Assembly (NCBI RefSeq): GCF_019249655.2
Contig: NZ_CP137557.1
Coordinates: forward strand, 3,071,001 to 3,135,000
Length of the DNA stretch: 64,000 nucleotides
Source of the DNA: Segatella copri
Lineage (GTDB): Bacteria > Bacteroidota > Bacteroidia > Bacteroidales > Bacteroidaceae
Direction of reading: 5' to 3'
A program made the translations under genes and the position numbers. The notes under the pieces were generated by a model. It did not search any database. It had not been told where the DNA came from and saw nothing but the letters and a program-made list of their open reading frames with translations. Below, in pieces: positions 18,486 through 38,474 of this stretch; within the stretch, counting starts at the first letter, position 1; each line of letters begins with the position of its first letter.

Positions 18486-18719
18486 TTATTCTGAGACATC
18501 ATGGATGAATGCCTCATTTCTGACGAAAAGGACAATTATACCAACTGATAAAACTATCAACCCGGCAATCATCAACCAAATAGCCATAAGTTCACCAAAG
18601 AACCGCAAATAGCCACCCATAAAGCCAAACGTCAGCAAGGAGAAGCCAAACATACTAAAGATGAATAAAGCATCTTCAACACTCATTTTCTTCCAATACT
18701 TAACAATAAGATGTTTCAT
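18486..18719 (-). CDS. Small membrane protein, first gene behind leader copy 1
   Basis: A 77-residue protein with two hydrophobic segments (about 16-38 and 44-66). Its ATG follows leader copy 1 directly (TTTTAGAGTATG), in the same position as the first genes behind copies 2 and 3. Function unknown; a role in the recipient envelope early after transfer would fit its position. Confidence 0.55.
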   Translation of the reverse strand: MKHLIVKYWKKMSVEDALFIFSMFGFSLLTFGFMGGYLRFFGELMAIWLMIAGLIVLSVGIIVLFVRNEAFIHDVSE

Positions 18720-19098
18720 ACTCTAAAATTTTAAATGGTTCAACATAAATTATTCTGGATTTGAGGATTCATTGCCTTTTTAAGGTTTTGAAGTTCCTTT
18801 CGATCCGATATTTTTTTTATCATTCCGTCATCTCGTCATCATATAGCCTTTTTACGTGCATTAAGAAATGGTGGTTCCAAGAGTCAGAACACCAAACAAT
18901 TCGGTAGAAAGTTTTTTGGAAAACCCAAATGTGCAACATTTGTGGAAGGCATTCCGGAAAAGTTTTAGCCGAATAAGGTATCGCCTGGTGTTTGGTATCT
19001 GACAGAACCGCCATACCTTTGCACCGTAAAAAGCCAAATGATAAAGAGACGGTAACCACTATCATAAAAAATAGAGGTCGAAGTAAGGAACAAAAATA
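18720..19098 (-). promoter_or_regulatory. Leader copy 1: candidate single-stranded-DNA promoter
   Basis: Repeated at 23488-23868 and 26663-27040. An imperfect inverted repeat spans 18793-19091. Left and right arms pair as ATGGTGGTTC/GAACCGCCAT (18868-18877, 19005-19014), GTCAGA/TCTGAC (18883, 18998), ACCAAACA/TGTTTGGT (18891, 18989), ATTCGG/CCGAAT (18899, 18969) and TTTTTACG-TGCA with TGCACCGTAAAAA. On the right arm TTTG (18991-18994), 19 nt, TACCTTTG (19014-19021) is a perfect promoter pointing right in duplex DNA. In a folded top strand its template is the left arm, so RNA would run left into the gene. The -7 bases face a mismatched bubble. A second possible duplex promoter on the minus strand has TATTTTTG at 19091-19098. 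Confidence 0.7.
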
Positions 19099-19239
19099 AA
19101 ATATAGATATAAAGAAAGTAATACCCCATGCTGTAAGCATGCAATAAAGCACTAGGCAAATAACGTTATATCTATATAGGTATATAACAATATAACACAA
19201 TAGCAATATATAAATAGATATAACCAAGCAGAAGAACCC

Positions 19240-19700
19240 TCATCAAACCCTCCGTTCTTTCCACACTGCACGTGTGCCGTGGAAAGAAGACCTCTCTCCC
19301 CTGCCCAGTAGTCACCCTCGGTTTGGCAGCTGGGCAATGCAACATGCGCCAGCATACTTGCATTGGGGCTAGAGAAGAAGAGACTTGTAGGAAGAGTGCC
19401 ATAGGCACGTGTCAGAAAGAATGGCCAAGGATGGCTCCCCTGGTGGAGATGAGCGTAGTTCATCTTCGCTGAAAAGGGTGCATCCCTGCCCATTCTGCGG
19501 ACCTTCCTATATGTCTCTTCTTCGAAAAGGGGTGTGGTGGCGGCAAGCCCCACATGAAGGTTCGACCTCTCTCCCGAAGCTGCTCTAAGGTGATGCAAGC
19601 ATCGCATTAGTGCAGTTTCCCTGTTTTCTCTGGAAGAATCACCAACGTTGTTCCTGGAAGAGAAAGCAGGGAAAGGGCTTAAACGGCGAAGATGTAGATA
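19240..19700. ncRNA. Candidate large structured RNA, strand undecided
   Basis: A GC-richer, non-coding block in AT-rich surroundings with several long helices: 19255-19264/19279-19288 (10 bp), 19335-19342/19358-19365 (8 bp with a nested ATGC/GCAT), 19374-19384/19513-19523 (11 bp) extended by 19389-19394/19503-19508 (6 bp), and 19616-19631/19659-19674 (16 bp, one wobble). The rightward duplex promoter in leader copy 1 points into it. A 225-codon minus frame covers it but has no protein-like composition. It could be a large RNA of the kind found in phages and mobile elements, or recently transposed DNA; no known class was recognised. Confidence 0.4.
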
Positions 19701-19712
19701 CAAAGAATAGCC

Positions 19713-19735
19713 TACCATATAGCAGCTATATGGTA
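19713..19735. repeat. Near-perfect palindrome TACCATATAGC
   Basis: TACCATATAGC-a-GCTATATGGTA, 11-bp arms around one base. A related palindrome with the same outer arms is at 25048-25070, both preceded by CC. They look like binding sites for one dimeric regulator of the element. Confidence 0.5.
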
Positions 19736-19870
19736 TAAAAGCAAAGCAAACTAACAAAATTGCCACTATTTGCGCCCAACAACAACCCATCGGAGATACC
19801 TCTTGCACCGGTGAAGCTGAATGGTTCAACCGGATGGCTGCGACCGATGAGGGAGCAGCCCGACGTATAA

Positions 19871-19900
19871 AAGGGATAACAAGTTTACCTGCTATCCCTT
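19871..19900 (-). terminator. Terminator of the AbiE operon
   Basis: AAGGGATA at 19871-19878 pairs with TATCCCTT at 19893-19900. On the minus strand the hairpin continues into CCCTTTTATA. It lies 65 bp after the last gene of the leftward AbiE operon. Confidence 0.6.
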
Positions 19901-19965
19901 AGCCCATGCAACAATATTACCATTGCAAGCTTGTCTACATATTTTTGAATGGACTCTTTCTGCTA

Positions 19966-20463
19966 TTATATAACTTGTTCTTTCTCCAATCGCAATATCT
20001 TGTTTATGACAGCGATAACTTGCTCTTGTATATAGGCTTTGAACATCGTATCATCCTTAATAGCAAAGTCCAACTGCTCATATACTACAATATTGACAGA
20101 ATTTCTGAGTTGTTTTAACTTGTCATTTACTGGTATCTGTCGATAGGCTTGCCAATAAAGCGTAACTTCATCTTGCACTATCGCTTTCAACACCATTTTC
20201 TGTTCACGGTTGAGTTTCTTGAAAGTCTTGGTTTCTCGTTCTTCGTTGTTGCCATATAAAATAGTATCGATATATTCATCGGCATCAACCATCTCAAATT
20301 CATTGTCCCCGAAAGGCAAGTCCAAAATCTTCTTGTTGCCTTTCTTCATCTCACCCATGCACTCCTTACAGATGTGTAGGGCATGACCTTTACCCGAAAA
20401 TGACTCGTTCGACTTGTATTCACCACAAATCTTACAGTAATGTCCTTTATGCTTCTTTGCCAT
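19966..20463 (-). CDS. Zinc-ribbon protein, third gene of the AbiE operon
   Basis: A 165-residue protein. The N-terminus has two CxxC pairs (CKICGEYKSNESF, then HICKECMGEM), a zinc ribbon. The rest is helical and charged. It begins 6 bp after the stop of the AbiEii-like toxin gene on the same strand. AbiE systems are normally two genes, so this is either an accessory part of this system or a linked passenger. Not recognised beyond the zinc ribbon. Confidence 0.6.
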   Translation of the reverse strand: MAKKHKGHYCKICGEYKSNESFSGKGHALHICKECMGEMKKGNKKILDLPFGDNEFEMVDADEYIDTILYGNNEERETKTFKKLNREQKMVLKAIVQDEVTLYWQAYRQIPVNDKLKQLRNSVNIVVYEQLDFAIKDDTMFKAYIQEQVIAVINKILRLEKEQVI

Positions 20464-20469
20464 GACCGT

Positions 20470-21447
20470 TTATTTTGGCAAATACGAAATCAACTGCTCC
20501 ATGCTATTTTCGATATTCTCAATAGTCGGTATATCTTTGTAGGCAAGGTCAGGAAGTTCTTTTGCATAGACGTTGCTTAACACTGACCATACATTATGCA
20601 GGTCACTGATGATTGGAGAATCCATAATGTCTTTGTTTTGCCATCCTTCGGGCTTGTCAAATCTTTGTTGGTCTTGTGCAAACAAGTTGCTGAAGTCCAA
20701 TTTGAAAGCGTCACTTTTCAAATAGTCCTGTGTCTCAGCATCATTCAAGAGAAAATGCAAATCATAGAAATGACGTATCTTGGCTGTCAACTCCGATATG
20801 TAGTTGTCGGCCAAGGAACACCGAAGTAATGACACCAATTTTTCAGTCAATGTCCTACGCCTGTCGAGAACATTCACCTCGAAAGGTTGCATATCATATT
20901 CCTCTATCAAGTTCTCGTTGCCTGTCTTTTGCAAGAACTCGGTCAAGAAGCTTTGCAGTTTACATTTCTGAAAAGGATATGGATTGGCAAATGAATTGAT
21001 TTCGACAAGCAACTGTCCTGCTTTGATAGCACCTACTTGTAATGTATCAATGGCTCGTGGATAAGAATAGTATGCCTTGTGATAATGAGAACCCTTGCTC
21101 GTAAAACCAGGCATATCCATTTCCTGCAGACCTTCCGTCATGCTTTTGGCAGTTCTCTTGATCAGCATCTTCAATTGGTTGCCGCTGAGCGTCCATGCCT
21201 CAGAGATAGCAATATCTATGTCTTCTGAGAATCTACTACCGATACCATATGCTTTTGTAAGACTTGTTCCTCCTTTGAAAATGGCACGGTTATCCTTGTC
21301 GTTCGCAGCCATCAAAGACAACGATCGACAAATCCAATAGTCCTTCTCGATGAAGATGCTCTTAATGCCGAGTCCTCCATCTTCTATAGGTTGCGATGCT
21401 GCTTGCAATGCATCAGAGAACAAATCCCTGTTTTCATGTAATCTCAT
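20470..21447 (-). CDS. AbiEii/AbiGii-type nucleotidyltransferase toxin
   Basis: A 325-residue nucleotidyltransferase. The motif FKGGTSLTKAYGI (residues about 58-70) followed by RFSEDIDIAI (about 74-83) supplies the GS and DxD catalytic signature of the AbiEii family. Such toxins of type IV toxin-antitoxin systems block growth, in known cases by modifying tRNA, to stop phage. It overlaps its antitoxin gene by 4 bp (ATGA), which keeps their translation coupled. It probably stabilises the element and guards against phage. Confidence 0.88.
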   Translation of the reverse strand: MRLHENRDLFSDALQAASQPIEDGGLGIKSIFIEKDYWICRSLSLMAANDKDNRAIFKGGTSLTKAYGIGSRFSEDIDIAISEAWTLSGNQLKMLIKRTAKSMTEGLQEMDMPGFTSKGSHYHKAYYSYPRAIDTLQVGAIKAGQLLVEINSFANPYPFQKCKLQSFLTEFLQKTGNENLIEEYDMQPFEVNVLDRRRTLTEKLVSLLRCSLADNYISELTAKIRHFYDLHFLLNDAETQDYLKSDAFKLDFSNLFAQDQQRFDKPEGWQNKDIMDSPIISDLHNVWSVLSNVYAKELPDLAYKDIPTIENIENSMEQLISYLPK

Positions 21448-22163
21448 ATGATGTTCCAGTTTTTTTTGTTTGATAATACTTTGTCGGAGACTGGCAACTT
21501 GTAGCTGGTCACTCCATTCAATGTTTTACTGATGGTTTCCGTTTCAAGCCCCATGTTCTCGTAGATGGCTCCAAGCAAAGCTCTTACATAAGGTGTGTAT
21601 GCCAAGGATAGTTCTGCCAATTCCTGCTTCTGTTCCATTGAAAGAGCATTGATTGCTTTGCAAATATTCGTCACACATTCATCTGGTGAAGTGGCAGGAA
21701 TGTCCTTTATAAGGCGCAGAGCATCCAATATTCTAAGTAGTGGAATATTGCTTGAAGTTATGGCGTTCTCTTGTAACAAGAAAGATATTTTCACGCCATT
21801 CCTTGTGATAGGTCTCCGATATTTATTTGTGCCGACAAGGATGGATGAGCTTATCTGTGTAGTTAACCCCATGGATGCAAATGCGGCAGTTCCGGTAATG
21901 TAGCCTACAATCTTGCCATTTTGCTCCAGAAAGTCTTTTACAAGTTCAGAATCTGCAGGTTTCAGATTTCCAAAAATGGTCTTCTTCGGAATATAGTATT
22001 TCCCCTTTGCTATCTTTTGCAGTTCGCCTTGGAGCACAAGACGGTTGAGAGCTTTGGCAAGTGCCGGCTGATACCGCATCTCCACCCCAAAATCTCTTGT
22101 TGTCAATACGACCCCTGCAGGGGTCGATGACAATTTTTCCTTTATCAGACTTGCTATAACCAT
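21444..22163 (-). CDS. AbiEi-like antitoxin (DUF6088 family)
   Basis: A 239-residue protein. Residues about 1-60 form a winged helix (ALAKALNRLVLQGELQKIAK, then GKYYIPKKTIFG), and the rest is the C-terminal domain of the DUF6088/AbiEi antitoxin family (GYITGTAAFASMGLTTQI). It would repress its own promoter and neutralise the nucleotidyltransferase. First gene of the operon; a TAACTTTG -7 element lies 23 bp upstream. Confidence 0.85.
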   Translation of the reverse strand: MVIASLIKEKLSSTPAGVVLTTRDFGVEMRYQPALAKALNRLVLQGELQKIAKGKYYIPKKTIFGNLKPADSELVKDFLEQNGKIVGYITGTAAFASMGLTTQISSSILVGTNKYRRPITRNGVKISFLLQENAITSSNIPLLRILDALRLIKDIPATSPDECVTNICKAINALSMEQKQELAELSLAYTPYVRALLGAIYENMGLETETISKTLNGVTSYKLPVSDKVLSNKKNWNII

Positions 22164-22185
22164 GTTTATCTCCTATTTTCGAGTG

Positions 22186-22193
22186 CAAAGTTA
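22186..22193 (-). promoter_or_regulatory. -7 element of the AbiE operon
   Basis: Reads TAACTTTG on the minus strand; a TTG about 20 nt further upstream could serve as -33. The antitoxin ATG follows within 23 bp. Confidence 0.6.
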
Positions 22194-22553
22194 ACAAAAG
22201 TCTTGTTTTTTACGCAATAAACTTGACTTTTATATATTTCTTTAACTATTTTCATGCTATAATCCATTCCATACCCCTTCATCCTCCCTTGTTTTTCCTT
22301 AGCAAATTTAGTTCAGCCCACCAAACCGTCAAGTACCGCCTTGCTATTGACTGCTTGTTTCATCAGCTGCCTTTCGTCAATCACAGATTGGGGTATTTTG
22401 AAGAAATGACCTCCCAATTTCTTGCCTTGTCAGCCTCCATGCCCGAACTCTTGATTGCACATAAAATCAAATTCCTCGATGAAGTCATAAAGGCTTCGAG
22501 AATAGGGAAGAAAAAGAAGTTTCACAATTTAATCCGAACAGATATGAACAATA

Positions 22554-22704
22554 TGGTTAACGAAAGAGACAAGGAGTTTGCCAATGACCATCGCTTTCTT
22601 GAAAACGAGAAGTTCAAGGTGATGATGGCTTTCATGGAGCAGTTGGCAGTAAACTATCAGAAGGTCCATTATGACCCTCACAATGAATGGGATTGCACCT
22701 TGAC
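22554..22704 (+). pseudogene. Fragment of the 26.4-kb leading-region gene, opposite strand
   Basis: The plus strand encodes EFANDHRFLENEKFKVMMAF and then MEQLAVNYQKVHYDPHNEWD, which matches residues 34-75 of the 94-residue protein at 26378-26662 almost position for position. There is no matching start and the end diverges, so this is a remnant of a second copy in inverted orientation. The longer surrounding frame (22223-22738) has no recognisable content before it. Confidence 0.6.
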
Positions 22705-22772
22705 ACATGCATCCACCGCATTTTTTCTTTCACTATGATATAATCTTATAGTTCATAACTTATGATATTGAG

Positions 22773-22793
22773 GAGAGGTGGTTAGCCTCTCCG
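22773..22793 (-). terminator. Hairpin after radC
   Basis: GGAGAGG-tggttag-CCTCTCC. The same stem with a similar loop lies after the YubB-like gene (25768-25788). It ends the leftward radC unit; no strong T-run follows, so efficiency is uncertain. Confidence 0.5.
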
Positions 22794-22806
22794 TTCCCTA
22801 TTTATG

Positions 22807-23487
22807 TTACAATTTACCTCTATCATGGTAAGAATAATAACTTCCATCAGAAATGATAATGTGGTCCATAAAGAAGATGCGCATGATTTCACAAGCTGCT
22901 TTGAGATTTTTGGTAATGATATCATCTGCCTTGCTTGGATGAGGGTTGTTGGATGGATGGTTATGGGCTACAGCCAGAATAGTAGCATTGTTCATAACAA
23001 CCTCTCTCATGATTCTTCTGACATCCATAGAAGTTTCGGTTATTCCACCATGACTTAATGGAACATGCTTTATGAGCTGGAAGTTCTGATTCATCAAGAG
23101 CAAATGACACTCTTCTACATCCAAATCACGAACTAGCGGATGAAGATAATTGTATATTGCAATACTACTACCTAAATCGGGACGTTCTGCTGTCTTTTCT
23201 GCATTATAACGCTTACCCAACTCAATAGCTGCCTGAAGAGCTATCGCTTTAGAGTCACCTATACCCTGCACTACCTGCAAATCCTCCACTCTAGCCTTAG
23301 CGATGTTACGCAAGCTTTCCTTCATTACATTGAAAAGCTGACGGGCTTGCTCAACGTTTTTCTTGGTTCCTGTACCAATTATCAGTGAAATCAACTCAAC
23401 TGAGGTCAAGTTTTCAAGCCCATTGTTAAAAGCCTTATACTGAGGAAATTCCTCCATGCAAAAACCATTGTAATTCATCTGTTTCAT
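22807..23487 (-). CDS. RadC-family JAB/MPN protein
   Basis: A 226-residue RadC protein. The N-terminal helix-hairpin-helix part (LTSVELISLIIGTGTKK, VVQGIGDSKAIALQAA) is followed by the JAMM-type metal site HNHPSNNPHPSKAD (residues about 182-195). RadC homologues are frequent in mobile-element leading regions; their activity is still debated. ATG 23487 is preferred because it is where the shared leader ends. In this copy the leader frame (MIKKISDRKEL...) is open and in phase, so a form extended by 35 residues is possible. Confidence 0.8.
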   Translation of the reverse strand: MKQMNYNGFCMEEFPQYKAFNNGLENLTSVELISLIIGTGTKKNVEQARQLFNVMKESLRNIAKARVEDLQVVQGIGDSKAIALQAAIELGKRYNAEKTAERPDLGSSIAIYNYLHPLVRDLDVEECHLLLMNQNFQLIKHVPLSHGGITETSMDVRRIMREVVMNNATILAVAHNHPSNNPHPSKADDIITKNLKAACEIMRIFFMDHIIISDGSYYSYHDRGKL

Positions 23488-23868
23488 TCTAACATTTTTA
23501 AAGGGTTCAACATAAAAATTATTCTGGATTCGAGGATTCATTGCCTTGTTAAGGTTTTGAAGTTCCTTTCGATCCGATATTTTTTTTATCATTCCGTCAT
23601 CTCGTCATCATATAGCCTTTTTACGTGCATCAGGAGATGGTGGTTCCTAGGAGTCAGAACACCAAACAATTCGGTAGAAAGTTTTTTGGAAAACCCAAAT
23701 GTGCAACATTTGTGGAAGGCATTCCGGAAAAGTTTTAGCAGAATAAGGCATCGCCTGGTGTTTGGTATCTGACAGAACCGCCATACCTTTGCACCGTAAA
23801 AAGCTAGATGATTGAGAGACGGCAACCACAATAATAAAAAATAGAGGTCGAAGTAAGGAACAAAAATA
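23488..23868 (-). promoter_or_regulatory. Leader copy 2: candidate single-stranded-DNA promoter of radC
   Basis: Second copy of the leader. The inverted repeat spans 23562-23861. The right arm holds TTTG (23761-23764), 19 nt, TACCTTTG (23784-23791). The left-arm bases opposite the -7 element differ from copy 1 (TCAGGAG in place of TTAAGAA) yet still do not pair with it, so the -7 bubble is kept while its sequence changes. ATGGTGGTTC, GTCAGA and ACCAAACA arms are identical to copy 1. The innermost CCGAAT pair is weakened to CAGAAT. Duplex -7 candidate on the minus strand at 23861-23868. Confidence 0.7.
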
Positions 23869-23979
23869 GAATATAGATATAAACAAAGCAATACCTATAT
23901 AGATATATAAGCCTATAAGAATATATAGATATGAAGATTTAAGCCCCCAGGGAAGCATCTCTTCCCAAAGGACAAGACC

Positions 23980-24049
23980 TTTTGCAATTGTTAATTTCAA
24001 AGGTATATCGCATTTATAGATAAGGAGCAGCAAAAAAGCATTACTTTTG
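23980..24049 (+). promoter_or_regulatory. Transfer-regulon promoter A (box plus -7)
   Basis: Box TTTTGCAATTG...AAAGGTAT at 23980-24006, and -7 element TACTTTTG at 24042-24049. The distance from box start to -7 start is 62 nt, as in the other three copies. No TTTG lies at -33, fitting an activator-dependent promoter. It drives the DUF3575 remnant. Confidence 0.75.
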
Positions 24050-24091
24050 TACTCGCAACATTAAATATAGATATAAAAACAATAAACATAT

Positions 24092-24643
24092 ATGAAAAAG
24101 AGGCTTTTCATTTTCGGTGTCTGCCTGTGTGTTGCAGGAAGACTGATAGCACAGGATGTACATTTCATGATGCAACATGAGAAAACAGCTATGAAATCGT
24201 CTGTGCATGGCAGTAAGGGTATACCATTGAAGTTGAAAACCAACCTGCTCTATGATGCTTTGCATGTCCCTAACCTATCAGCAGAGTTGGGGCTAGGAAA
24301 GAATATGTCCATAGGACTGGATTACTGGTATACCTGGTTTGACAGCAATCCGACACACAACTACTGGAGAAGTTATGGTGGCGGTATAGGTATAAAGAGA
24401 TATTTCAGTGGGCAGAGCTACAGGCAATCATTGACTGGGCACCACATTGGCATAGTCAGTCAGATGGGTATGTATGATGTGGAATATGGAAAAAGAGGCA
24501 ATATGTCCGACTTTTCCTATACGCTGGGAACCGAATATGGCTATGTCTTTCCGCTGAGTTCAAGATTCTGTCTGCATCTGTTTCCGGTTTGGCAGCTGGC
24601 ATCCGCCTTTCAGATGGAGCAAAAACAACAGAAAAGGTCATAG
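24092..24643 (+). pseudogene. DUF3575 protein, 3' end lost by deletion
   Basis: Starts with a signal peptide (MKKRLFIFGVCLCVAGRLIA) and a DUF3575 body (LKTNLLYDALHVPNLSAELG, DYWYTWF, GGGIGIKRYF). This outer-membrane-like family is found next to fimbrillin genes in Bacteroidales. After YGYVFPLSSRFCLHLF the frame passes into sequence belonging, in another frame, to a DUF5119-like protein and stops. It still sits behind a regulon promoter. A truncated product may be made. Confidence 0.55.
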
Positions 24644-24939
24644 TCCCATTCTCTATGTCGTTGACTGGTGATATGGAACTGAAAGGAAACTTCCGATGCT
24701 TTGGCAAGATTCCAGATGCAAACATATCTAACAAACTGGTTATCTATGCAATCCTTAAAGACGGAAGCAAATGGTGTTATGTCTATGATATAATAAACCA
24801 GATAGATGCAGCTTCCGATTCTTTCAAGGTAACCGTAGTTTTAGATAAATTACCTATTCCAAACAAGATTGAAAATAATAGCGGCTTAACCCCAGGAGTC
24901 AGCGACTGGAATGCTGTAGATATTCCAATAAAAATGTAA
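24600..24939 (+). pseudogene. C-terminal remnant of a DUF5119/fimbrillin-type protein
   Basis: In the frame one base off the DUF3575 gene, residues such as VIVPFSMSLTGDMELKG, IPDANISNKLVIYAI and LTPGVSDWNAVDIPIKM resemble the C-terminal half of DUF5119 proteins, which normally follow DUF3575 genes. No own start or signal peptide is present. A deletion appears to have joined the front of the first gene to the back of the next. Confidence 0.5.
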
Positions 24940-25047
24940 AATAAGAAATTGTAGTTAAATCATTTGTAGTAAATGATGTCCATATTTTGCTCTGTGAAGA
25001 GCGGAATATGGATTTCTTTTAAAGAAAAATAGATGATAACAATAACC

Positions 25048-25070
25048 TACCATATAGGTATTATATGGTA
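25048..25070. repeat. Palindrome related to 19713-19735
   Basis: TACCATATA-ggtat-TATATGGTA, 9-bp arms. It lies 17 bp before the ATG of the small rightward gene and may be its operator. Confidence 0.5.
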
Positions 25071-25086
25071 CAAAAATAGAATAGAT

Positions 25087-25293
25087 ATGAGCAAAACCAT
25101 AAAAATCATTCACGTCCACTTCATAAGCGGTCATCATAATTACTATTTCGGAAGCGTGAGAGCCATCTATAAGATGTTCTCGCCAGAAGAGTTGGGTTGT
25201 AGCGAAATCTATCTTCGCCACCAGCTTACACAGACCGGTAATCACTTTTTAAACGACAGAGTGTTAATCATTCGCTCTACGCTGATTAGATAG
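25087..25293 (+). CDS. Conserved small mobile-element protein
   Basis: A 68-residue protein (KIIHVHFISGHHNYYFGSVR, then LGCSEIYLRHQL). The pattern 'NYYFGS..AIY......E.GC...YLR' ending in IIRSTLIR is one I know from small hypothetical proteins of Bacteroidetes phages and conjugative elements. Function unknown. ATG 25087 is chosen; an earlier ATG at 25033 lies before the palindrome. Confidence 0.65.
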   Translation: MSKTIKIIHVHFISGHHNYYFGSVRAIYKMFSPEELGCSEIYLRHQLTQTGNHFLNDRVLIIRSTLIR

Positions 25294-25300
25294 AAAAAAT

Positions 25301-25337
25301 GCTTCATTCTTTCATCCCGAAAATGGAAGAATGAAGC
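25301..25337 (+). terminator. Terminator of the small rightward gene
   Basis: GCTTCATTCTT pairs perfectly with AAGAATGAAGC, 11-bp stem, 8 bp after the stop codon. No strong T-run follows. Confidence 0.55.
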
Positions 25338-25378
25338 CGCCCGTTTGTAGTCTAAACCAAAATATCTTGACAACAAGA

Positions 25379-25405
25379 GAGCGTTACCCCATCAGATAAC
25401 GCCCT
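25379..25405 (-). terminator. Terminator of the leftward 25.4-26.7 kb operon
   Basis: GCGTTA (25381-25386) pairs with TAACGC (25397-25402), extended by GAG/CTC-type flanks. It lies just after the stop at 25411 on the minus strand and is followed by TCTCTTGTTG. Confidence 0.5.
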
Positions 25406-25410
25406 CAGTC

Positions 25411-25752
25411 TTAATCTTCAAGAGTCAAGTACACCGCAGTGTATACACTATCAATGGTAGCAGAAACTACGTCATCTTCTACTGCCATGGTCTGCCAATC
25501 CTCATCCACTTCGCCATTTTCTTTGCCCTTGTAAAACAGAACGCTATTTTCTACTTTTACGGCAACAACCTGCACTTCAGTAATTTCATTACTCCAATCG
25601 TGAACTCTGATGAGCCAAGCTGCCCCGATTTCTTCTTTTTTTTCCAAAAGGTTAACTTCCTCTTTACCATGTTTGTCCATCACCTCAATGATAGATTTAA
25701 CGATTTCCTTATGGAGATTAATTCTTTGTCCGATGTAATCAATATATTTCAT
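25411..25752 (-). CDS. Hypothetical protein
   Basis: A 113-residue acidic protein (EVDEDWQTMAVEDDVVSATI near the end), not recognised. Third gene of the leftward operon behind leader copy 3, separated from the YubB-like gene by a hairpin that may reduce its expression. Confidence 0.55.
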   Translation of the reverse strand: MKYIDYIGQRINLHKEIVKSIIEVMDKHGKEEVNLLEKKEEIGAAWLIRVHDWSNEITEVQVVAVKVENSVLFYKGKENGEVDEDWQTMAVEDDVVSATIDSVYTAVYLTLED

Positions 25753-25767
25753 TTTCTGATGTTTTTG

Positions 25768-25788
25768 TGGAGAGGCGGTTAACCTCTC
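25768..25788 (-). terminator. Hairpin after the YubB-like gene
   Basis: GGAGAGG-cggttaa-CCTCTCC, nearly identical to 22773-22793 after radC. It lies 10 bp after the stop codon at 25798 on the minus strand. Confidence 0.5.
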
Positions 25789-25797
25789 CGTTACCTT

Positions 25798-26367
25798 TTA
25801 TGCTACAATTTCGTATTCGTGAAGACTGATGTAATCGTCGTCTAGTTCGTGTTCCTCATTCCACTCTTTTATCTCTTCAACTGAAATGGAGTTACGATTC
25901 AATCTGCCTGCAATATACTGTAGTGCTTCGGCTTCAGTCTTAAAGTATTCAAATTCATCTTCGCCTTCAACGCAGGAGTCAACGGCAAAACGATATGAAA
26001 AGTACTTTCCTTCAACGTCATTTGTTGCATACACTTCACATCCCTCCTCTTCCACGATATAGTATACTTTCATATCTTCGTAGTGACCTTCAAGAAGATG
26101 TCTGAAATCCGTAGCTCCCCAAGCTTCACTGGCTTCAATGCATAAAACTCCATCTTCAAGTTCGCATTCCTGTATGAAACCTCTCAAATAGCTAGACCCC
26201 TTGTCTATACCGAGAGCCAAGATGATGTTTCCTTCCCACTCCTCTGATGCTCCTTCTTCCATTACAGGGCGTTCTTTGCTCAAAAACGCCTTGCAAAGGT
26301 CATTTAACTCCTGAAGGTCTTCTGAGTTACCTTCGATTCTATAACTTGTCTGTGCCCAATTAGCCAT
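25798..26367 (-). CDS. Acidic YubB-like (DUF1281-type) ferredoxin-fold protein
   Basis: A 189-residue, very acidic protein. MANWAQTSYRIEGNSEDL at the start and SEAWGATDFRHLLEGHYEDM with VYYIVEEEG near the middle follow the plan of YubB/DUF1281 proteins, plasmid proteins with a ferredoxin-like fold and a conserved 'W' segment. Such genes are typical of plasmid leading regions. The strong negative charge would fit a DNA-mimic anti-restriction role, but that is inference. ATG 26367 is chosen, 11 bp after the preceding gene. Confidence 0.55.
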   Translation of the reverse strand: MANWAQTSYRIEGNSEDLQELNDLCKAFLSKERPVMEEGASEEWEGNIILALGIDKGSSYLRGFIQECELEDGVLCIEASEAWGATDFRHLLEGHYEDMKVYYIVEEEGCEVYATNDVEGKYFSYRFAVDSCVEGEDEFEYFKTEAEALQYIAGRLNRNSISVEEIKEWNEEHELDDDYISLHEYEIVA

Positions 26368-26377
26368 ATCTGTAAAA

Positions 26378-26662
26378 CTAAAACATTGTATAATAAAGTT
26401 CCTTCTCTCTAAGGTGCTCGATAGCTTCGTTAGCCAACTGGCACGCCCATTCATCACGAGGGTCGTAACACCCCTGCTTGTAGTTCTCAGCCAATTGCTC
26501 CATGAAAGCCATTACAACCTTGAACTTTTCATTCACCAAGAAACGATGGTCATTAGCCCATTCTTTGCCGGTTTTGGCTGCGCTACCCATCTTGCCATTC
26601 ACAAAACGAGAAAACTCGTCTGCAAACTGCTTGTCATTTTCACTAATTGAATCGTTATACAT
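26378..26662 (-). CDS. Hypothetical protein, first gene behind leader copy 3
   Basis: A 94-residue protein with a conserved core (EWANDHRFLVNEKFKVVMAF, then YDPRDEWACQLANEA). An inverted partial copy lies at 22554-22704. Not recognised by family. Its ATG directly follows leader copy 3 (AGTTAGAGTATG). Confidence 0.6.
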   Translation of the reverse strand: MYNDSISENDKQFADEFSRFVNGKMGSAAKTGKEWANDHRFLVNEKFKVVMAFMEQLAENYKQGCYDPRDEWACQLANEAIEHLREKELYYTMF

Positions 26663-27040
26663 ACTCTAACTATTTTAAATGGTTCAACATAAATTATTCT
26701 GGATTTGAGGATTCATTGCCTTTTACGTTTTTTTGTTCCTTTCGATCCGATATTTTTTTTATTATTCCGTCATCTCGTCATCATATAGCCTTTTTACGTG
26801 CATTAAGAAATGGTGGTTCCAAGAGTCAGAACACCAAACAATTCGGTAGAAAGTTTTTTGGAAAACCCAAATGTGCAACATTTGTGGAAGGCATTCCGGA
26901 AAAGTTTTAGCCGAATAAGGCATCGCCTGGTGTTTGGTATCTGACAGAACCGCCATAACTTTGCACCGTAAAAAGCCAAATGATAGAGAGACGGCAACCC
27001 CAAGTATAAAAAATAGAGGTCGAAGTAAGGAACAAAAATA
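26663..27040 (-). promoter_or_regulatory. Leader copy 3: candidate single-stranded-DNA promoter
   Basis: Third copy. The inverted repeat spans 26735-27033. The right arm has TTTG (26933-26936), 19 nt, TAACTTTG (26956-26963). Relative to copy 1 the -7 has one changed base inside the free nn positions, so the consensus is kept. The downstream short reading frame seen in copies 1 and 2 (MIKKIS...) has lost its ATG here, so the DNA or RNA structure and not that peptide is what is conserved. Duplex -7 candidate on the minus strand at 27033-27040. Confidence 0.7.
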
Positions 27041-27312: not shown

Positions 27313-27792
27313 ATGGGTGCATTTGGAATTTATGTAGCGATATTAACTTTCATTTATATCGTATACTATGCCGCCATGATCGGCATGGATGTCGTTGGCA
27401 GCAACGGCAAGAAGAAAGCAGAAGTTGAAGAGTTTGCTGTTGGCAATGCTCCCAACGAAGACTTTGAAGAAGAGCCTACTATGGTGAGTGAAGACGACGA
27501 TACTCCTGCTGTAAAGACTGGTGAGACAGAAGTTCCTTCACAACCTTCAACTGGTGAGAACGCGCTAATGGCGACCTCAGGTAAGAGTGGAGAGCAGTTG
27601 GCAGCAGAGATTCTTGCAGCAGATGACAACGCTCTTTATAATCAGTCAATGGCTGTCAAGAAGAAAATGGTCAAGTTCTGTGCAGAGAGTGAGGATGAGA
27701 AAACTGCTCGTGAATATGAACGTTCTATCTTGGAGTCTATGGAACAAGCTGTAGAATTAGGCGGAAACAATATGGATGATTTAGACGTATGA
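27313..27792 (+). CDS. First tra-operon protein, one membrane helix and acidic tail
   Basis: A 159-residue protein. Residues about 4-28 form a membrane helix (GIYVAILTFIYIVYYAAMIG); the remainder is acidic and low in structure up to residue 90, then helical. It overlaps the next gene by 4 bp. Similar small anchored proteins start Bacteroidetes tra operons, but I cannot give it a Tra letter. Confidence 0.6.
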   Translation: MGAFGIYVAILTFIYIVYYAAMIGMDVVGSNGKKKAEVEEFAVGNAPNEDFEEEPTMVSEDDDTPAVKTGETEVPSQPSTGENALMATSGKSGEQLAAEILAADDNALYNQSMAVKKKMVKFCAESEDEKTAREYERSILESMEQAVELGGNNMDDLDV

Positions 27793-28151
27793 AAAAGATG
27801 ATAGATCCAAGATACCTGATGGTATTGTTACTTGTTGCCGTTTCTCTTTCTGCATCTGCTGATTGTGGTAGTACGGATTATAGTGGCAGTATGGGCAGAT
27901 TATATGATATGGTAGTATATGTGCTGAACATGTGTGTCTTCACCATGCGCCTGATGTATGCCGTAGCATCTGTTCTTGCCATCTACAGTGCCACCAGTAT
28001 CTATATCAAACTCCAAGCAGGAGAAGAAGGTTTCACGAAAAGTGTACTCGTCTTGGTGGGAAGTTGTTTATTCCTTATAGGAGCAACAATCGTAATGCCG
28101 GCTTTCTTCGGTTTCAGTTATGGCAATACGTCTACGTTAAAATTTTGGTAG
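27789..28151 (+). CDS. TraE-like DUF4134 membrane protein 1
   Basis: A 120-residue protein with a signal-like N-terminus (MVLLLVAVSLSASADC) and two further hydrophobic segments (about 48-66 and 84-104). The plan matches DUF4134/TraE of Bacteroides conjugative transposons, whose place and shape suggest a VirB2 pilin-like subunit. Two such genes follow each other here; this is the more divergent one. Confidence 0.6.
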   Translation: MKKMIDPRYLMVLLLVAVSLSASADCGSTDYSGSMGRLYDMVVYVLNMCVFTMRLMYAVASVLAIYSATSIYIKLQAGEEGFTKSVLVLVGSCLFLIGATIVMPAFFGFSYGNTSTLKFW

Positions 28152-28184
28152 AAAGTTTTTTTATAATTAATATAGTTTAAATTT

Positions 28185-28598
28185 ATGAACAGAATGATTT
28201 TTAGTACGTTGGCTTGTGCCACAAAAAGTTGTGCTTCGGCTTCTGCCAAGCAGATTAAGACATTGGTGAAGAACCCACGCTTCGGCATGGTGATGATGCT
28301 TCTTTTCGTATTTACAATTGGCGTGTTCGCCCAGGATGCAGCTGGAAACTTCTCGGCAGGTACGAAGGCGTTGACTACAGCAACCGAGGAAATAGCCAAG
28401 TATGTACCTATCGTTGTGAAGCTTTGCTATGCCATCGCAGGTGTTGTTGCCGTTGTAGGTGCGATCACAGTTTATATTGCGATGAACAACGAGGAGAACG
28501 ACATCAAGAAGAAGATTATGATGACCGTAGGTGCATGTATCTTCCTCATTGCAGCTGCTCAGGCATTGCCATTGTTCTTTGGTGTAACCAACGTTTAA
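28185..28598 (+). CDS. traE: TraE (DUF4134), VirB2-like
   Basis: A 137-residue protein. After a long leader (to AQDAAGNF, about residue 50) come two hydrophobic helices (VVKLCYAIAGVVAVVGAITV; MMTVGACIFLIAAAQALPLF) with the ending FFGV typical of TraE/DUF4134. It is probably cleaved and forms the pilus or channel core of the type IV secretion system. Neighbours TraF and TraG follow in the standard order. Confidence 0.75.
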   Translation: MNRMIFSTLACATKSCASASAKQIKTLVKNPRFGMVMMLLFVFTIGVFAQDAAGNFSAGTKALTTATEEIAKYVPIVVKLCYAIAGVVAVVGAITVYIAMNNEENDIKKKIMMTVGACIFLIAAAQALPLFFGVTNV

Positions 28599-28609
28599 GT
28601 TTTTGAGTT

Positions 28610-28918
28610 ATGGCAAGTGATAATCAAGGGCAATATCCTGATTATCCGGTTTTCAAGGGGCTTCAGAAGCCCCTTGAATTTCTGGGTTTGCAAGGAAGGT
28701 ATATCTATTGGGCAGCCGGCGCAGTTGGTGGTGGCATTCTAGGCTTTTTGATATTCTACATGTGGATTGGTTTCATTGTAGGACTTGTCTATCTCACCAT
28801 CGTAATAGGTTTTGGTGGAGCGATGATATTCATCAAGCAGCATAAGGGATTGCATTCCAAGAAACATAGTAAAGGCGTATATGTACTTGCCCACCTGCAA
28901 CAGTATAGAAGCAGATGA
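28610..28918 (+). CDS. traF: TraF (DUF4133), VirB3-like
   Basis: A 102-residue protein with two adjacent membrane helices (about 30-50 and 52-73). The start YPVFKGLQKPLEFLGLQGRY matches DUF4133/TraF, the VirB3-like inner-membrane partner of the VirB4 ATPase. The next gene is the TraG ATPase, as usual. Confidence 0.82.
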   Translation: MASDNQGQYPDYPVFKGLQKPLEFLGLQGRYIYWAAGAVGGGILGFLIFYMWIGFIVGLVYLTIVIGFGGAMIFIKQHKGLHSKKHSKGVYVLAHLQQYRSR

Positions 28919-28949
28919 GCAAGTTTTTTTATTTCTAAAAACTATCAGT

Positions 28950-31865
28950 ATGATTTCAATTTTTGTTATTGTCGTATTTATCTCCATCCTGGTGGGTATG
29001 GCTATTTCCGTGAGTGCGTTTGGTACTGGCGGTAAGCGAGCCAAGATGTTTGAAAATATCTATTTCAGTGTAGAGGATGTGGATGGAATTGGCGTGGTGT
29101 ATACAAAGAAGGGTGATTATTCTGCCATTCTCAAAATGGAGAATCCTGTAAGAAAATATTCAGCAGATATAGATAACTATTACGACTTCACCGCCCTGAT
29201 GGCATCTGTAATGCAATTGTTGGGAGACGGATATGCCATCCATAAGCAGGATATCTTTGTCCGTAAGAAATTTGATATGAACATGATATCTTCTGAGAAC
29301 AAAGATAGCAAGAAGCGTTTCCTTTCAGACGCATATTTCCGTTTCTTCAATGGTAGAACCTATACAGAGAGCACTACTTATCTCACTATTACACAGCGAG
29401 GCAAGAGTGGTGGTCTCAAAACCTACGACTCTAACAAATGGAGAGATTTTCTCGTGAAGATACGTAAAGTGGAAGACCGTTTGAAGAGTGGCGAGATAAG
29501 CTGCAAGTTCCTCACATCCAAGGAATGCCAGGAGTTTGCAGATCGTTTCTTTGCGGTTGATTTCACAAATGAGAAAGTAAGCATGTCCAATTTCAAGGTA
29601 GACAGTGAAGAAATCGGCATGGGCAATTTCCACGTGAAAGTGTACAGTCTCCTAGATATAGACAATGTAGGATTACCGAGCAATCTCCGTCCCTATAGTG
29701 AAACAACAGTCAACAATGCCGTTCTTCCAGAGGATTTGCTCTCAGAGATAGACCATATCCCTGGTGTAGATACCGTTATTTATAATCAGATTCTCTTCCT
29801 TCCTAACCAGAAGAGAGAGATGGCAAAGCTGGATAAGAAGAAAAACCGCCATGCTTCTATCCCGAATCCATCCAATCTGATAGCAGTAGAAGATATCAAG
29901 GCTGTTCAGAACGAAATTGCAAGAAATAGCAAAACCCTTGTATATGCACACTTTAATCTCGTCATAAAGATTGACGCAGACAAGGATTTTCAGAAGATTA
30001 CCAACAATTTGGAAAACATCTTCTCCAAATACAGCATCAATATCTCCAAGCGTGCCTATAACCAGTTGGAACTGTTCGTGGCAAGCTTTCCTGGCAACTG
30101 TTTCCGTCTCAACCAGGACTATGATCAGTTCCTTACGTTGTCAGAGGCAGCTCTGTGTCTGATGTATAAGGAGCATCAAGCCAAGGGAGACCAGTCTTCC
30201 CTGAAATGCTACTATACAGACCGCCAGGGTGTTCCGATGCCTATAGATACCACCGGTAAGGAAGGAAAGGTGAAGTATACCAACAACTCCAATTTCTTCG
30301 TATTGGGACCCTCCGGAAGCGGAAAGAGCTTCTTCATGAACACGGTGATGCGACAATATTATGAGCAGGACACAGATGTTGTGATTGTAGATACCGGTGA
30401 CAGCTATGAGGGAATCTGCAGCTACTTCGGGGGAACCTACATTTCCTACACCAAGGAAAAGCCTATCTCCATGAATCCGTTCAAGATAACCAAGATGGAG
30501 TATGAGCAGAACTTCGGAGAGAAGAAAAACTTCCTGAAGAACCTTATCTTCCAGATATATAAGGGAGCCAGCCAACCATCGATGCTGGAAGAGACCATCA
30601 TCAACCAGACCATCGTGGAGTATTATGAAGCCTACTTCCAACCTTTCGAAGGTTTTACGGACGAAGAGCGTGAAAAAATGAAAGATGCCATCCTGCTTCA
30701 GGATAAGGCCAACGGCAAGTATGAAGAGTATGAGCAGAAAATGGAAGAGCGTTATGGCGAGGAGTTTAACCTGGAACTTACTGAAAATAGGGAGCTTTCT
30801 GAAAAAGATAAGCGCAGGGTACCGAAGCTCAAAGCCATCATCGATGACAGCGCAGCTACCGAGGGCGAGAAGGAACAGGCAAAGAAAGCCCTTCAGCGAC
30901 TCACCCCGGAAGTTATTGAAAATAACTATCTTATGCGTATTGAAAGAAAACTGGAGAAGGTGGAGCGACAGAAGAAGAAGTTGAAGGTAACAGATCTGTC
31001 ATTCAACACCTACTATGAGTTTGTCCTAGAGCGTATTCCGCAGATTATGAAACAGCAGAACATCAGTTTCGATATCCATAATTTTGCAACGATTCTCAAA
31101 CCTTTCTATAAAGGTGGAGAGAAGGAATACATTCTTAACAACGATTTGGATGCTTCTCTCTTTGATGAGAAGTTCATCGTCTTCGAGATTGATAAGGTGA
31201 AGGATGACAAAGTCCTCTTCCCTATCATCGTGCTCATCATCATGGACGTGTTCACCCAAAAGATGCGTATCAAGAAGGGCAGAAAATGCCTGGTTATCGA
31301 GGAAGCCTGGAAAGCCATAGCCACACCGACGATGGCAGAATATATCAAGTATCTCTATAAGACCGCCCGTAAGCACTGGGCAATGGTGGGTGTTGTGACC
31401 CAGGAGATACAGGATATAACCTCCTCCCCTATCGTGAAGGAAGCCATCATCAACAATTCCGATGTGTTCATGCTTCTCGACCAGAGTAAGTTTAAGGATA
31501 AGTTTGATGAGATCAAGGCAACCCTTGCACTCACCGATAATGACTGCAAGAAGATTTTCACCATCAACCGTCTTGACAACAAGGACGGACGAACCTATTT
31601 CAAGGAAGTCTTTCTGAAAAGGGGTCAGTCTGGTGAAGTATTGGGTGTAGAGGAACCGCCAGAGTGTTATATGGCGTATACTACTGAGAAAGCAGAAAAG
31701 GAAGCCTTGAAGCTCTATCTCAAACTTATGCAGACAGACTACCAGCATGCCATTGAGCAGTTTGTAAGCGACTGGCACAACAGCGGTATCGGCAAATGTC
31801 TGGAGTTCTCTCAGAAAGTATTGAAAGAGAAGAAAGTCTTTTTTTACAAGAAAAAAAATGGATAA
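28950..31865 (+). CDS. traG: TraG, VirB4-family secretion ATPase
   Basis: A 971-residue protein. An N-terminal membrane helix (ISIFVIVVFISILVGMAISV) is followed by the TraG N-terminal domain, then the ATPase. Walker A GPSGSGKSFF is near residue 455 and Walker B CLVIEEAWKA near residue 783. It powers assembly and substrate transfer by the type IV secretion system. ATG 28950 is chosen because it starts the membrane helix; the frame extends back to 28881 inside traF. Length slightly exceeds the usual ~830, with an extra charged helical stretch at about 570-680 (KDAILLQDKANGKYEEYEQK). Confidence 0.9.
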   Translation: MISIFVIVVFISILVGMAISVSAFGTGGKRAKMFENIYFSVEDVDGIGVVYTKKGDYSAILKMENPVRKYSADIDNYYDFTALMASVMQLLGDGYAIHKQDIFVRKKFDMNMISSENKDSKKRFLSDAYFRFFNGRTYTESTTYLTITQRGKSGGLKTYDSNKWRDFLVKIRKVEDRLKSGEISCKFLTSKECQEFADRFFAVDFTNEKVSMSNFKVDSEEIGMGNFHVKVYSLLDIDNVGLPSNLRPYSETTVNNAVLPEDLLSEIDHIPGVDTVIYNQILFLPNQKREMAKLDKKKNRHASIPNPSNLIAVEDIKAVQNEIARNSKTLVYAHFNLVIKIDADKDFQKITNNLENIFSKYSINISKRAYNQLELFVASFPGNCFRLNQDYDQFLTLSEAALCLMYKEHQAKGDQSSLKCYYTDRQGVPMPIDTTGKEGKVKYTNNSNFFVLGPSGSGKSFFMNTVMRQYYEQDTDVVIVDTGDSYEGICSYFGGTYISYTKEKPISMNPFKITKMEYEQNFGEKKNFLKNLIFQIYKGASQPSMLEETIINQTIVEYYEAYFQPFEGFTDEEREKMKDAILLQDKANGKYEEYEQKMEERYGEEFNLELTENRELSEKDKRRVPKLKAIIDDSAATEGEKEQAKKALQRLTPEVIENNYLMRIERKLEKVERQKKKLKVTDLSFNTYYEFVLERIPQIMKQQNISFDIHNFATILKPFYKGGEKEYILNNDLDASLFDEKFIVFEIDKVKDDKVLFPIIVLIIMDVFTQKMRIKKGRKCLVIEEAWKAIATPTMAEYIKYLYKTARKHWAMVGVVTQEIQDITSSPIVKEAIINNSDVFMLLDQSKFKDKFDEIKATLALTDNDCKKIFTINRLDNKDGRTYFKEVFLKRGQSGEVLGVEEPPECYMAYTTEKAEKEALKLYLKLMQTDYQHAIEQFVSDWHNSGIGKCLEFSQKVLKEKKVFFYKKKNG

Positions 31866-31868
31866 GCA

Positions 31869-34538: not shown

Positions 34539-35368
34539 AAAAACAGGGTTTGGTATTTGTAATTATGGCAATGCTTTTCGTCTTCCCGGCGAAGAGCTTT
34601 GCCATATTGGACTATGATGCTGGCTCACTGGAGACCATGATCAGCAACCATAAGAAGGTGAGAACCGTACTTGGCATACGAGCAGCAGCAGAGATGGGAG
34701 TGTTGGAAGCCCATAAAGCCTTTTCCCAATCTTCCACTAGCTTCGAGGAGACCAGCAAGGCTATCGACCGCTATAAAAGATGCTTCGACATCATCGACCT
34801 GATACTCAATGGTACTGCCACTGCATTCCATGGCGTGAATACCTACAGGAGTGTAAAGAGTAATGTAGAACTGTATCTTAAACTCCTGGATGATTATAAG
34901 ACAAACTTCCTTCTGAAGGGAAACGTCAAAAATTCCGATGCCGTTATCTATACCACCAGTGCAGAAGCCATTAACCAGATAAAGACCTCTGCCATATCCA
35001 TGTATGACTCCTATATAGATTTGGCAGCCTACCTTACTGGAGCAGCAGAGTTTGATGCCCAGTCAATGATGATTTGTCTTCAATGCATCAATGACAACAT
35101 GGACGATATCGATTCCGCAGTAAAGAATGCCTATTTCACCTTATACAGCTATATGGTTATGCGAAAAGGCTTCTGGAAGGATGGACTCTACCGTGGCAAG
35201 ACCATTGAGAACCTAGCTATGGAAGCCTATGATTCATGGAAGAAGGCACAGTATATAGCCAAACTGAAGAACTCACGTGCCGGTGGCAGCAGTGAGTCGG
35301 AGAAACGAGCACCCCTCGGAGGCGGATCACTTCTCGGTAACAAGCGGTTGAGTGAAGAAGAAATTTGA
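34535..35368 (+). CDS. Exported tra-operon protein
   Basis: A 277-residue protein with a signal peptide (MKKQGLVFVIMAMLFVFPAKSFA) and an all-helical body (VLGIRAAAEMGVLEAHKAF). It is likely periplasmic and may be VirB5-like. It overlaps the preceding coiled-coil gene by 4 bp (ATGA). Not recognised by name. Confidence 0.6.
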   Translation: MKKQGLVFVIMAMLFVFPAKSFAILDYDAGSLETMISNHKKVRTVLGIRAAAEMGVLEAHKAFSQSSTSFEETSKAIDRYKRCFDIIDLILNGTATAFHGVNTYRSVKSNVELYLKLLDDYKTNFLLKGNVKNSDAVIYTTSAEAINQIKTSAISMYDSYIDLAAYLTGAAEFDAQSMMICLQCINDNMDDIDSAVKNAYFTLYSYMVMRKGFWKDGLYRGKTIENLAMEAYDSWKKAQYIAKLKNSRAGGSSESEKRAPLGGGSLLGNKRLSEEEI

Positions 35369-35401
35369 AAGAACATATAAAACAACAGAAAACAAGATAC
35401 A

Positions 35402-36139
35402 ATGAAAAGTTTAATCAAAGGCAATATTGCAGCATTCCTACTAGTGCTGAGCAGCAGTCCGTTGTCAGCCCAGACATATAATCATGAGTCAGCCATCATG
35501 AACCAGTTTACGGTGATGGAGATTGGAGCCGGGAGCCTTACTCCTAGAGAATATTATAATCTCACGCATAAAAACTACCAGAAGTCAGCCACCCTTACCA
35601 ACAAGCAGAGTTTCCGTACCAAGACGCAGCAGAATATGATGAAGGAAATCTCCCTTGCAGAAAATGTAGATTCAGTCTTGTCCAGAAGAGCTAAGGTCGA
35701 AGCACTGAATATCGCCAACCGTACTCCAGGAGCTGCCGATGTGGCCTGGCAGATGGAAAAGGGAAAGATAGAAGGAGCCATGAGCAACTTCCAGCAGAAC
35801 ATCAACAAGATAACCCTATATGGTGGAACTTCTGACGATTACAAAGACTGGAGTAATGTGTATCATAGTCTCGCTTTTGCTATCAAGGTAACAAGAGAGT
35901 CCTATATGGATCTGGGAAGCAGAAAGCGAGAATATCTTACCATCTACCGTGACATCGTAAAAAAGAACCTTACTCTGACTAAACAGCTTCGCACATTGAA
36001 AGCTGTAAAGACAATGAAGGAAGTCAGCAGTAAGGCAACGAAGGTAGACCGGGTAACGAGTAATGCTACGGTAGCCACAGATGCCTTGGGAAGGTGGCAA
36101 CATTCACTAGCCGTAAACGGTTTCCATAAAAAGAACTAG
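35402..36139 (+). CDS. Exported helical tra-operon protein, VirB5-like candidate
   Basis: A 245-residue protein with a signal peptide (FLLVLSSSPLSAQ) and long helices rich in Lys, Ala and Thr. It sits just before the TraJ-like gene, as TraI (DUF4141-type) proteins do in related loci. The operon then ends or pauses; a fresh regulon promoter starts the next group. Confidence 0.55.
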   Translation: MKSLIKGNIAAFLLVLSSSPLSAQTYNHESAIMNQFTVMEIGAGSLTPREYYNLTHKNYQKSATLTNKQSFRTKTQQNMMKEISLAENVDSVLSRRAKVEALNIANRTPGAADVAWQMEKGKIEGAMSNFQQNINKITLYGGTSDDYKDWSNVYHSLAFAIKVTRESYMDLGSRKREYLTIYRDIVKKNLTLTKQLRTLKAVKTMKEVSSKATKVDRVTSNATVATDALGRWQHSLAVNGFHKKN

Positions 36140-38472: not shown

Positions 38473-38474
38473 CT

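Follow-up and report, generated by a model that had tools for sequence, protein, structure and literature searches.

Repeated hairpin leaders with Bacteroidetes promoter boxes in a putative conjugative element of Segatella copri: candidate promoters on single-stranded DNA

Hairpin leaders in a putative conjugative element of Segatella copri

The window analyzed here, a stretch of 64,000 nucleotides from Segatella copri (contig NZ_CP137557.1, positions 3,071,001 to 3,135,000), looks like a chromosome-borne conjugative element. It is flanked on the left by genes for an RNA methyltransferase, a nucleoside transporter, and a chromate transporter, and on the right by a pyruvate-phosphate-dikinase-like gene; between these flanks lie replication-type genes, ParA, an AbiE toxin pair, RadC, a conjugation (tra) operon, a gene with an SSB domain, and ArdC-like genes. 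The subject of this study is a set of three leaders of about 380 nt in this element, which are 92.8–95.7% identical to each other over about 395 nt and of which each abuts the ATG of a leftward open reading frame (ORF; starts at 18719, 23487, and 26662). They form hairpins with Bacteroidetes promoter boxes and probably serve as promoters on single-stranded DNA (ssDNA), comparable to Frpo of the F plasmid.

Copy 1 covers 18720..19098 (hairpin 18793-19091), copy 2 23488..23868 (hairpin 23562-23861), and copy 3 26663..27040 (hairpin 26735-27033), all on the plus strand; they were delimited by folding and, for copy 1, also by the identity of 94–96% to copies 2 and 3. Folded as ssDNA, the top strand of copy 1 yielded −60.1 kcal/mol compared to a shuffle mean of −26.7 (standard deviation 3.4, z −9.9), and none of 200 shuffles was as low. 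The bottom strand yielded −58.7 kcal/mol (z −8.1). For copies 2 and 3, z was between −9.5 and −10.2 on either strand, with 0 of 60 shuffles as low. A previous sequence-only reading of the window had described three leaders of about 370 bp that end at a leftward ATG and hold an inverted repeat of about 300 nt; this was confirmed, with z values of about −8 to −10 and both promoter boxes located.

Promoter elements and opening of the −7 box

The right arms of all three copies hold the sequence TTTG-N19-TA(C/A)CTTTG, directed rightward in duplex DNA, which agrees with the sigma-ABfr consensus as given in PMC7366714. In copy 1, the −33 element TTTG is located at 18991..18994 (plus strand) and the −7 element TACCTTTG at 19014..19021 (plus strand), whose A and the following C are unpaired in the fold. 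Copy 2 carries TTTG-N19-TACCTTTG at 23761..23791 and copy 3 TTTG-N19-TAACTTTG at 26933..26963. The exact promoter TTTG-N19-TAnnTTTG, pointing away from the gene in the duplex, was therefore present in three of three right arms, as had been read from the sequence.

The same reading had placed the −7 box opposite a mismatch and the −33 box in paired DNA. When 13 close copies were folded singly, −33 was fully paired in 12 and paired at 3 of 4 bases in the remaining one, and the A of TAnnTTTG or its neighbor was unpaired in all 13. The opening is limited to a small internal loop at the A and its neighbor, and in the minimum-energy folds of the wider family one of these two bases was open in 48 of 69 copies, so that this description stands for the close copies and in part for the family. 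Mean pairing over the 69 copies was 0.84–0.89 for the TTG of −33; within TAnnTTTG it was 0.88 for the first T, 0.40 for the A, 0.44 for the next base, and 0.97 for the final G.

Distribution and compensatory evolution of the hairpin family

A DNA search detected the leader in two Segatella plasmids, to which a pattern search added S. copri strain Indica. Plain DNA similarity retrieved 2 of 200 genomes of the genus sample and 2 of 399 of the family sample. Because the family diverges in sequence, a covariance model was used instead; it was built from the hairpin top only, with −33 included and −7 left out. Of 399 genomes from the GTDB family to which S. copri Indica belongs (Indica genome counted in), the model matched 41, at 116 places in total. 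In the order sample, it matched 1 of 198 genomes, only S. copri Indica, the source of training copies, and in the phylum sample 1 of 395, again only Indica; these two samples also serve as a control for false matches. Genome samples were drawn evenly, close relatives were counted as separate copies, stricter filters were applied in searches of more than 40 genomes, and the E-values of the model are rough.

An exact TAnnTTTG was found 4–20 nt past the end of the model in 69 of 76 distinct copies (control windows: 6 of 1520). When the copies from the nine loci that had supplied the training set were set aside, 56 of the remaining 63 had the box in place (control windows: 6 of 1260). Among the seven copies lacking it in place, three showed a shifted exact motif, two TACCTTCG, and two neither. 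The exact complement of the −7 box within 40 nt to the left of the core occurred in 0 of 76 copies. A model-free scan of both strands for boxes, arm, and an open −7 in five sequences assigned 21 sites to the hairpin strand and 2 to its complement (hairpin/other strand: S. copri DSM 18205 plasmid 4/0, Indica contig 9/0, 50 kb of the Parabacteroides distasonis plasmid 3/0, window 3/1, S. hominis plasmid 2/1).

In the alignment of 81 distinct copies (A7, which takes in the remnant of the window described below and a few partial matches), 87.9% of the cells pair. Double-change cells numbered 818 versus 266 in shuffles, and the covariation score was 0.544 versus 0.176 in shuffled and 0.075–0.104 in slid alignments; for covariation and G.T counts, three identical rows were merged, and the copy W01x (143858; right arm missing, poor fold) was excluded from alignments. 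Both sides had changed in 40 of 44 pairs, which indicates that pairing of the hairpin is under selection. A 13-copy MAFFT alignment, which was not fitted to the model, retained a double change in 22 of 38 predicted pairs. Compensatory changes in the arms of homologous leaders, which the sequence-only reading had proposed as a check, were hence recovered in both data sets. On the top strand, G.T cells were more frequent than A.C cells (152 vs. 57; flanked by Watson–Crick pairs, 69 vs. 35), an excess in favor of the top strand being the single strand that acts, and an argument against a structure in the leader of a leftward mRNA. The tip of the hairpin displayed conserved unpaired bases (GGAAtACC / GGAAGG) across the 81 copies.

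Genes adjacent to the hairpins

A leftward ORF of at least 60 amino acids starts within 450 nt of the core at all 76 copies (median 110 nt), compared to 69% of random positions. A rightward ORF is similarly near in 47 of 76, no more than the 69% at random positions. The ORFs beside the copies were chosen mechanically, and some may be wrong. Among four copies (one of the window, two of DSM 18205, one of S. hominis), identity was higher in the outer left arm (0.76) and the 5' leader (0.63) than in the sequence to the right of the hairpin (0.43); conservation thus follows the predicted transcript.

The first ORF behind copy 1 (18486..18719, minus strand) encodes 77 amino acids without a Pfam family, and the next ones (18038-18358 and 17525-18019, minus strand) are also without a family. 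Copy 2 precedes a gene for a RadC-like JAB protein (22807..23487, minus strand), and the hairpin at 149756 of the S. copri DSM 18205 plasmid likewise precedes radC. The first gene behind copy 3 (26378..26662, minus strand), which is followed by ORFs at 25798-26367 and 25411-25752 (minus strand), encodes a protein of 94 amino acids with 91 database relatives and a four-helix model (mean predicted local distance difference test score, pLDDT, 89.4). A structure search with this protein gave no PDB match at E ≤ 0.001 and one uncharacterized Bacillus phage protein (E 4e-4); proteins resembling it by eye are encoded behind hairpins at other loci. About 300–360 nt to the right of copies 2 and 3, a rightward ORF begins (24092 and 27313, the latter being the start of the tra operon), so a promoter of the right arm in the duplex does not point at nothing there.

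Pfam matches (E up to 0.01, some of them weak) among 75 distinct first proteins comprised DUF1281_C (6), DUF2958 (4), RadC (3), LPD11 (3), WYL_2 (2), and ParB (1). Three weak single matches in this set were disbelieved. The model-free scan also revealed a second, shorter hairpin class, which the covariance model had missed. It lies directly before SSB genes (L001 6117, 10489; G001:C8 91817, 88433, 86244): all five SSB genes identified by tblastn, two on the DSM 18205 plasmid and three on the Indica contig, start 182–184 nt from the −33 box of this class. On the P. distasonis plasmid, a sequence match, TATCTTTG, was found 194 nt from the ssb start. A third type, CTTG-N17-TAAnTTTG with the left arm GCTTTTTACGTGC, is located at W01 1138 and G001:C8 73527 and has no clear gene.

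Strand arrays and relaxase genes

The 116 places were grouped into 56 clusters, and the 29 clusters with several copies were without exception on a single strand (60 neighbor pairs, some of them from related elements). Of the 56 clusters, 30 had a PF01076 (MobV-type) relaxase gene no more than 100 kb away, which in 29 of these 30 lay on the strand opposite to the hairpin; the remaining 26 clusters had no PF01076 match within 100 kb on their own contig. Weaker PF01076 matches were omitted from this count and were, by eye, on hairpin-free contigs or more than 100 kb away. The relaxase searches, from which G546, one of the 41 matching genomes, was left out, comprised 40 genomes for PF03432 and 41 including G040 for PF01076. 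PF01076 was the more common neighbor of the hairpins; the nearest PF03432 relaxases, by eye among the matches listed, were 19 kb (G280:C1), 34 kb (G555:C3), and 36 kb (G012:C3) away. In relatives, hairpins occur on both flanks of the MobV-type relaxase gene, as far as about 70 kb away. Conserved motifs upstream of mobV are candidates for an origin of transfer (oriT) without an assignable strand. The open stretches of at least 100 codons in the window contained no convincing HUH motif.

Further features of the window and related replicons

The tra operon to the right of copy 3 (27313..46166, plus strand) encodes DUF4134 and DUF4133 proteins, a TraG ATPase, a weakly TraJ-like protein, TraM, and TraN. 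Between copies 1 and 2, the region 19966..22163 contains the genes for the AbiEii toxin (20470-21447) and a DUF6088 protein (21444-22163), both on the minus strand. A degenerate fourth member of the hairpin family was identified at 22319..22436 (minus strand). It is about 90% identical to the hairpin locus L079, with deletions, and folds no better than shuffles; it is flanked by a deleted gene, by eye a relative of the copy-3 gene, and lies near the AbiE toxin pair.

The GC-rich intergenic region 19205-19900 shows nested inverted repeats and folds far below shuffles (z −10.9 for the top and −7.9 for the bottom strand, 25 shuffles). One other element retains a 57-nt block of it (near 19530-19586) at 84% conservation, about 270 nt to the right of the family hairpin there. 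This region is a candidate for an oriT or a structured RNA, with no assignable strand. Matches to known RNA families were an abiF RNA (Rfam RF03085) at 60381-60418 (minus strand), within the Abi_2/AbiD gene stretch 59452-60432, and a FopS-family small RNA (RF04319) at 5795-5866 (minus strand) in the chromosomal flank. The hairpins of the window and of 20 loci had no match in Rfam 15 at the gathering score; around copy 1, only chance-level matches appeared (E up to 5).

The same hairpin region occurs in the plasmid records NZ_OY725765.1, NZ_OY725888.1, and OY725994.1 from P. distasonis, Bacteroides finegoldii, and P. massiliensis. The first two of these have much of one element in common; a large number of protein accessions and the label TSDC17.2-1.1 recur in both, suggesting a recent transfer between species. 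Copy 1 had no DNA match in the phage collection. In viral contigs, the strict DNA pattern returned 0 stretches and a looser one 15. Elsewhere, the strict pattern had returned three stretches in two genomes; one of the stretches (L003) had no match to the hairpin DNA, may be a chance occurrence, and was rejected.

Discussion

Taken as a sequence-based interpretation, the leaders are probably Frpo-like ssDNA promoters with the Bacteroidetes consensus, from which the RNA polymerase of the host would read the leftward gene during conjugation. In the single-stranded state of the top strand, the hairpin would present its right arm as the non-template and its left arm as the template strand. The polymerase would start near 18853-18855 in copy 1 and leave the hairpin leftward into the gene; once the DNA is converted to the duplex, the hairpin would be lost and the gene silenced. 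The least certain step is that the top strand would be the one entering the recipient. From the Frpo-like interpretation put forward earlier, we retain what concerns the promoter, on account of the paired −33, the local opening at −7, the covariation, the −7 box in 56 of 63 copies, the one-strand arrays, the 76 of 76 leftward ORFs, and the SSB-, RadC-, ParB-, and DUF1281-type genes; the part concerning the transferred strand and the leading region would be no more than a possibility. Those refuting conditions of the earlier reading that could be computed did not speak against the promoter interpretation.

Several observations weigh against the Frpo-like interpretation. The inverted repeat folds about equally well on either strand, so the fold alone is silent on the acting strand; the comparison of top and bottom strand envisaged earlier yielded a stable top-strand hairpin in all three copies and an about equally stable bottom strand. 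Pair counts stem from an alignment fitted to a model favoring G-U, which partly biases both the covariation and the G.T excess. A paired −33 and an open −7 are common but not universal, since the left arm pairs with the complete TTG of −33 in 55 of 69 folds and the A and the next base of −7 are both closed in 21 of 69. In the duplex, the same right arm should behave like a conventional rightward promoter, a promoter role alone leaves the conserved tip unexplained, the degenerate family member sits on the strand opposite to copies 1–3, and the SSB-domain gene of the window (55759-56394, rightward) is not behind any hairpin. Further points concern the direction of transfer. No relaxase was found in the window, where tblastn with a MobV relaxase (E up to 1) was negative. 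In 25 of 30 clusters, the hairpin closest to mob lies on the 3' side of this gene (mob to its right). In pMV158, it is the coding strand of mob that is transferred (PMC5863519, legend of Figure 2), and by this analogy the bottom strand would be the one transferred here. The proposal of a transferred top strand and a leading region at 17.5-27 kb was thus not supported: the orientation relative to MobV is consistent (29 of 30 opposite), but the hairpins flank the relaxase gene on both sides, and the pMV158 precedent points the other way.

A more far-reaching interpretation, which we consider rather doubtful, is that one promoter reads the strandedness of the DNA. As ssDNA, it would transcribe leftward into ssb, radC, and many uncharacterized small genes; as a duplex, it would drive rightward transcription, either of tra (copy 3) or antisense to the early gene that follows, and the direction would thereby report the duplex state. 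The tip would recruit a so far unrecognized factor, and the system would provide immediate-early control across conjugation in gut Bacteroidales. It is unlikely that the hairpins are instead single-strand initiation sites (sso/ssi), which would provide a primer for the complementary strand on the transferred or displaced strand, with the proximity to genes being secondary. That they are scattered across tens of kb to the left and right of mob, on one strand per cluster, is what would be expected of repeated priming sites, the conserved tip could bind a primase or a helper, and Frpo itself is said to make primers as well, going by the title of a 1997 paper by Masai and Arai. A primer site needs no gene, however, whereas a leftward ORF is present at 76 of 76 copies, in many at about 97–114 nt, and conservation extends from the hairpin towards the ATG. 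Priming and promoter roles are compatible with each other.

The probability is smaller still that the right-arm promoter works only in the duplex, driving rightward either a tra operon or an RNA antisense to the neighboring gene on that side, with the hairpin regulating this promoter. The exact consensus, its rightward orientation, and the location of copy 3 and of the S. hominis copy at 183859 about 300–360 nt ahead of a tra operon would be in accordance with such a function, but rightward ORFs accompany only 47 of 76 copies (control 69%) compared to 76 of 76 for leftward ones, and the covariation of the hairpin would be left unexplained. We give slightly less weight to a structure acting as RNA, either as leader of the leftward mRNA or as a separate RNA such as a 6S-like polymerase decoy. 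A long hairpin with an internal loop at a promoter-like sequence would fit this, and covariation cannot separate RNA from DNA; on the other hand, G-U pairs of a leftward mRNA would be read as A.C in the top-strand sequence, and A.C is the rarer class (57 vs. 152, in an alignment leaning to G-U), Rfam 15 gave no gathering-score match for the window and 20 loci, and the −33/−7 boxes are kept as DNA at promoter spacing. Least probable, to a degree that makes it hardly credible, is a miniature transposable or recombination element spread by copying. Near-identical copies within one element and their inverted-repeat shape are reminiscent of such elements, but the strand coherence of 29 of 29 multi-copy clusters, the position of the copies before leftward ORFs, and the compensatory evolution do not conform to it.

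If the Frpo-like interpretation is true, the gene behind each of the 116 places in the 41 sampled genomes is a likely immediate-early gene of conjugation. These genes would constitute a hunting ground for anti-defence functions, and a simple sequence tag would find more of them. The elements concerned move genes among gut bacteria, and ssDNA promoters have so far been described mainly from enterobacterial plasmids in the literature examined.

Comparison with known systems

According to PMC9849209, the F plasmid carries the hairpins Frpo1 and Frpo2 with both boxes, which are 92% identical and separated by about 5 kb; ssb follows Frpo2, and the toxin–antitoxin locus flmAB lies between the copies. 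The leaders described here resemble these in that a single-strand hairpin rebuilds both promoter boxes at the correct spacing, in the presence of near-identical copies (here 93–96%, 3–5 kb apart), in a toxin–antitoxin locus between copies (here AbiE, between copies 1 and 2), and in ssb behind a hairpin in two related replicons. They differ from Frpo in the Bacteroidetes −33/−7 instead of −35/−10 boxes, in a hairpin of about 300 nt with a conserved tip, and in the location of hairpins on both sides of the relaxase gene. The hairpin of copy 1 had no DNA match in 20,395 E. coli records, among which Frpo-bearing plasmids are assumed to be present; the hairpins were therefore classed as predicted to work like Frpo and not as its homologs.

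Repeated promoter hairpins on one strand ahead of early genes are also described for ssi of ColIb-P9 and for Frpo-like candidates of other conjugative elements (PMC11541004), and the hairpins studied here share this arrangement with ssi. In that paper, Samuel et al. sought candidates with TTGACA/TATAAT boxes and BLAST to known Frpo, and its main text contains no words starting with "Bacteroid" or "Prevotella". In the literature searched, which mostly did not extend to subscription papers, no report of such promoters in Bacteroidetes was found. The conjugative element ICEBs1 reportedly carries a functional single-strand origin (sso); unlike this origin, each hairpin copy here precedes an ORF and holds both promoter boxes. 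The virion RNA polymerase of phage N4 recognizes promoters on short ssDNA hairpins, whereas the boxes found here fit the host sigma factor. Judged by these comparisons, the hairpin family would represent apparently unrelated, convergent ssDNA promoters for the Bacteroidetes sigma factor and, if so, would offer a second phylum in which to test the enterobacterial model with respect to promoter consensus, hairpin, and strand.

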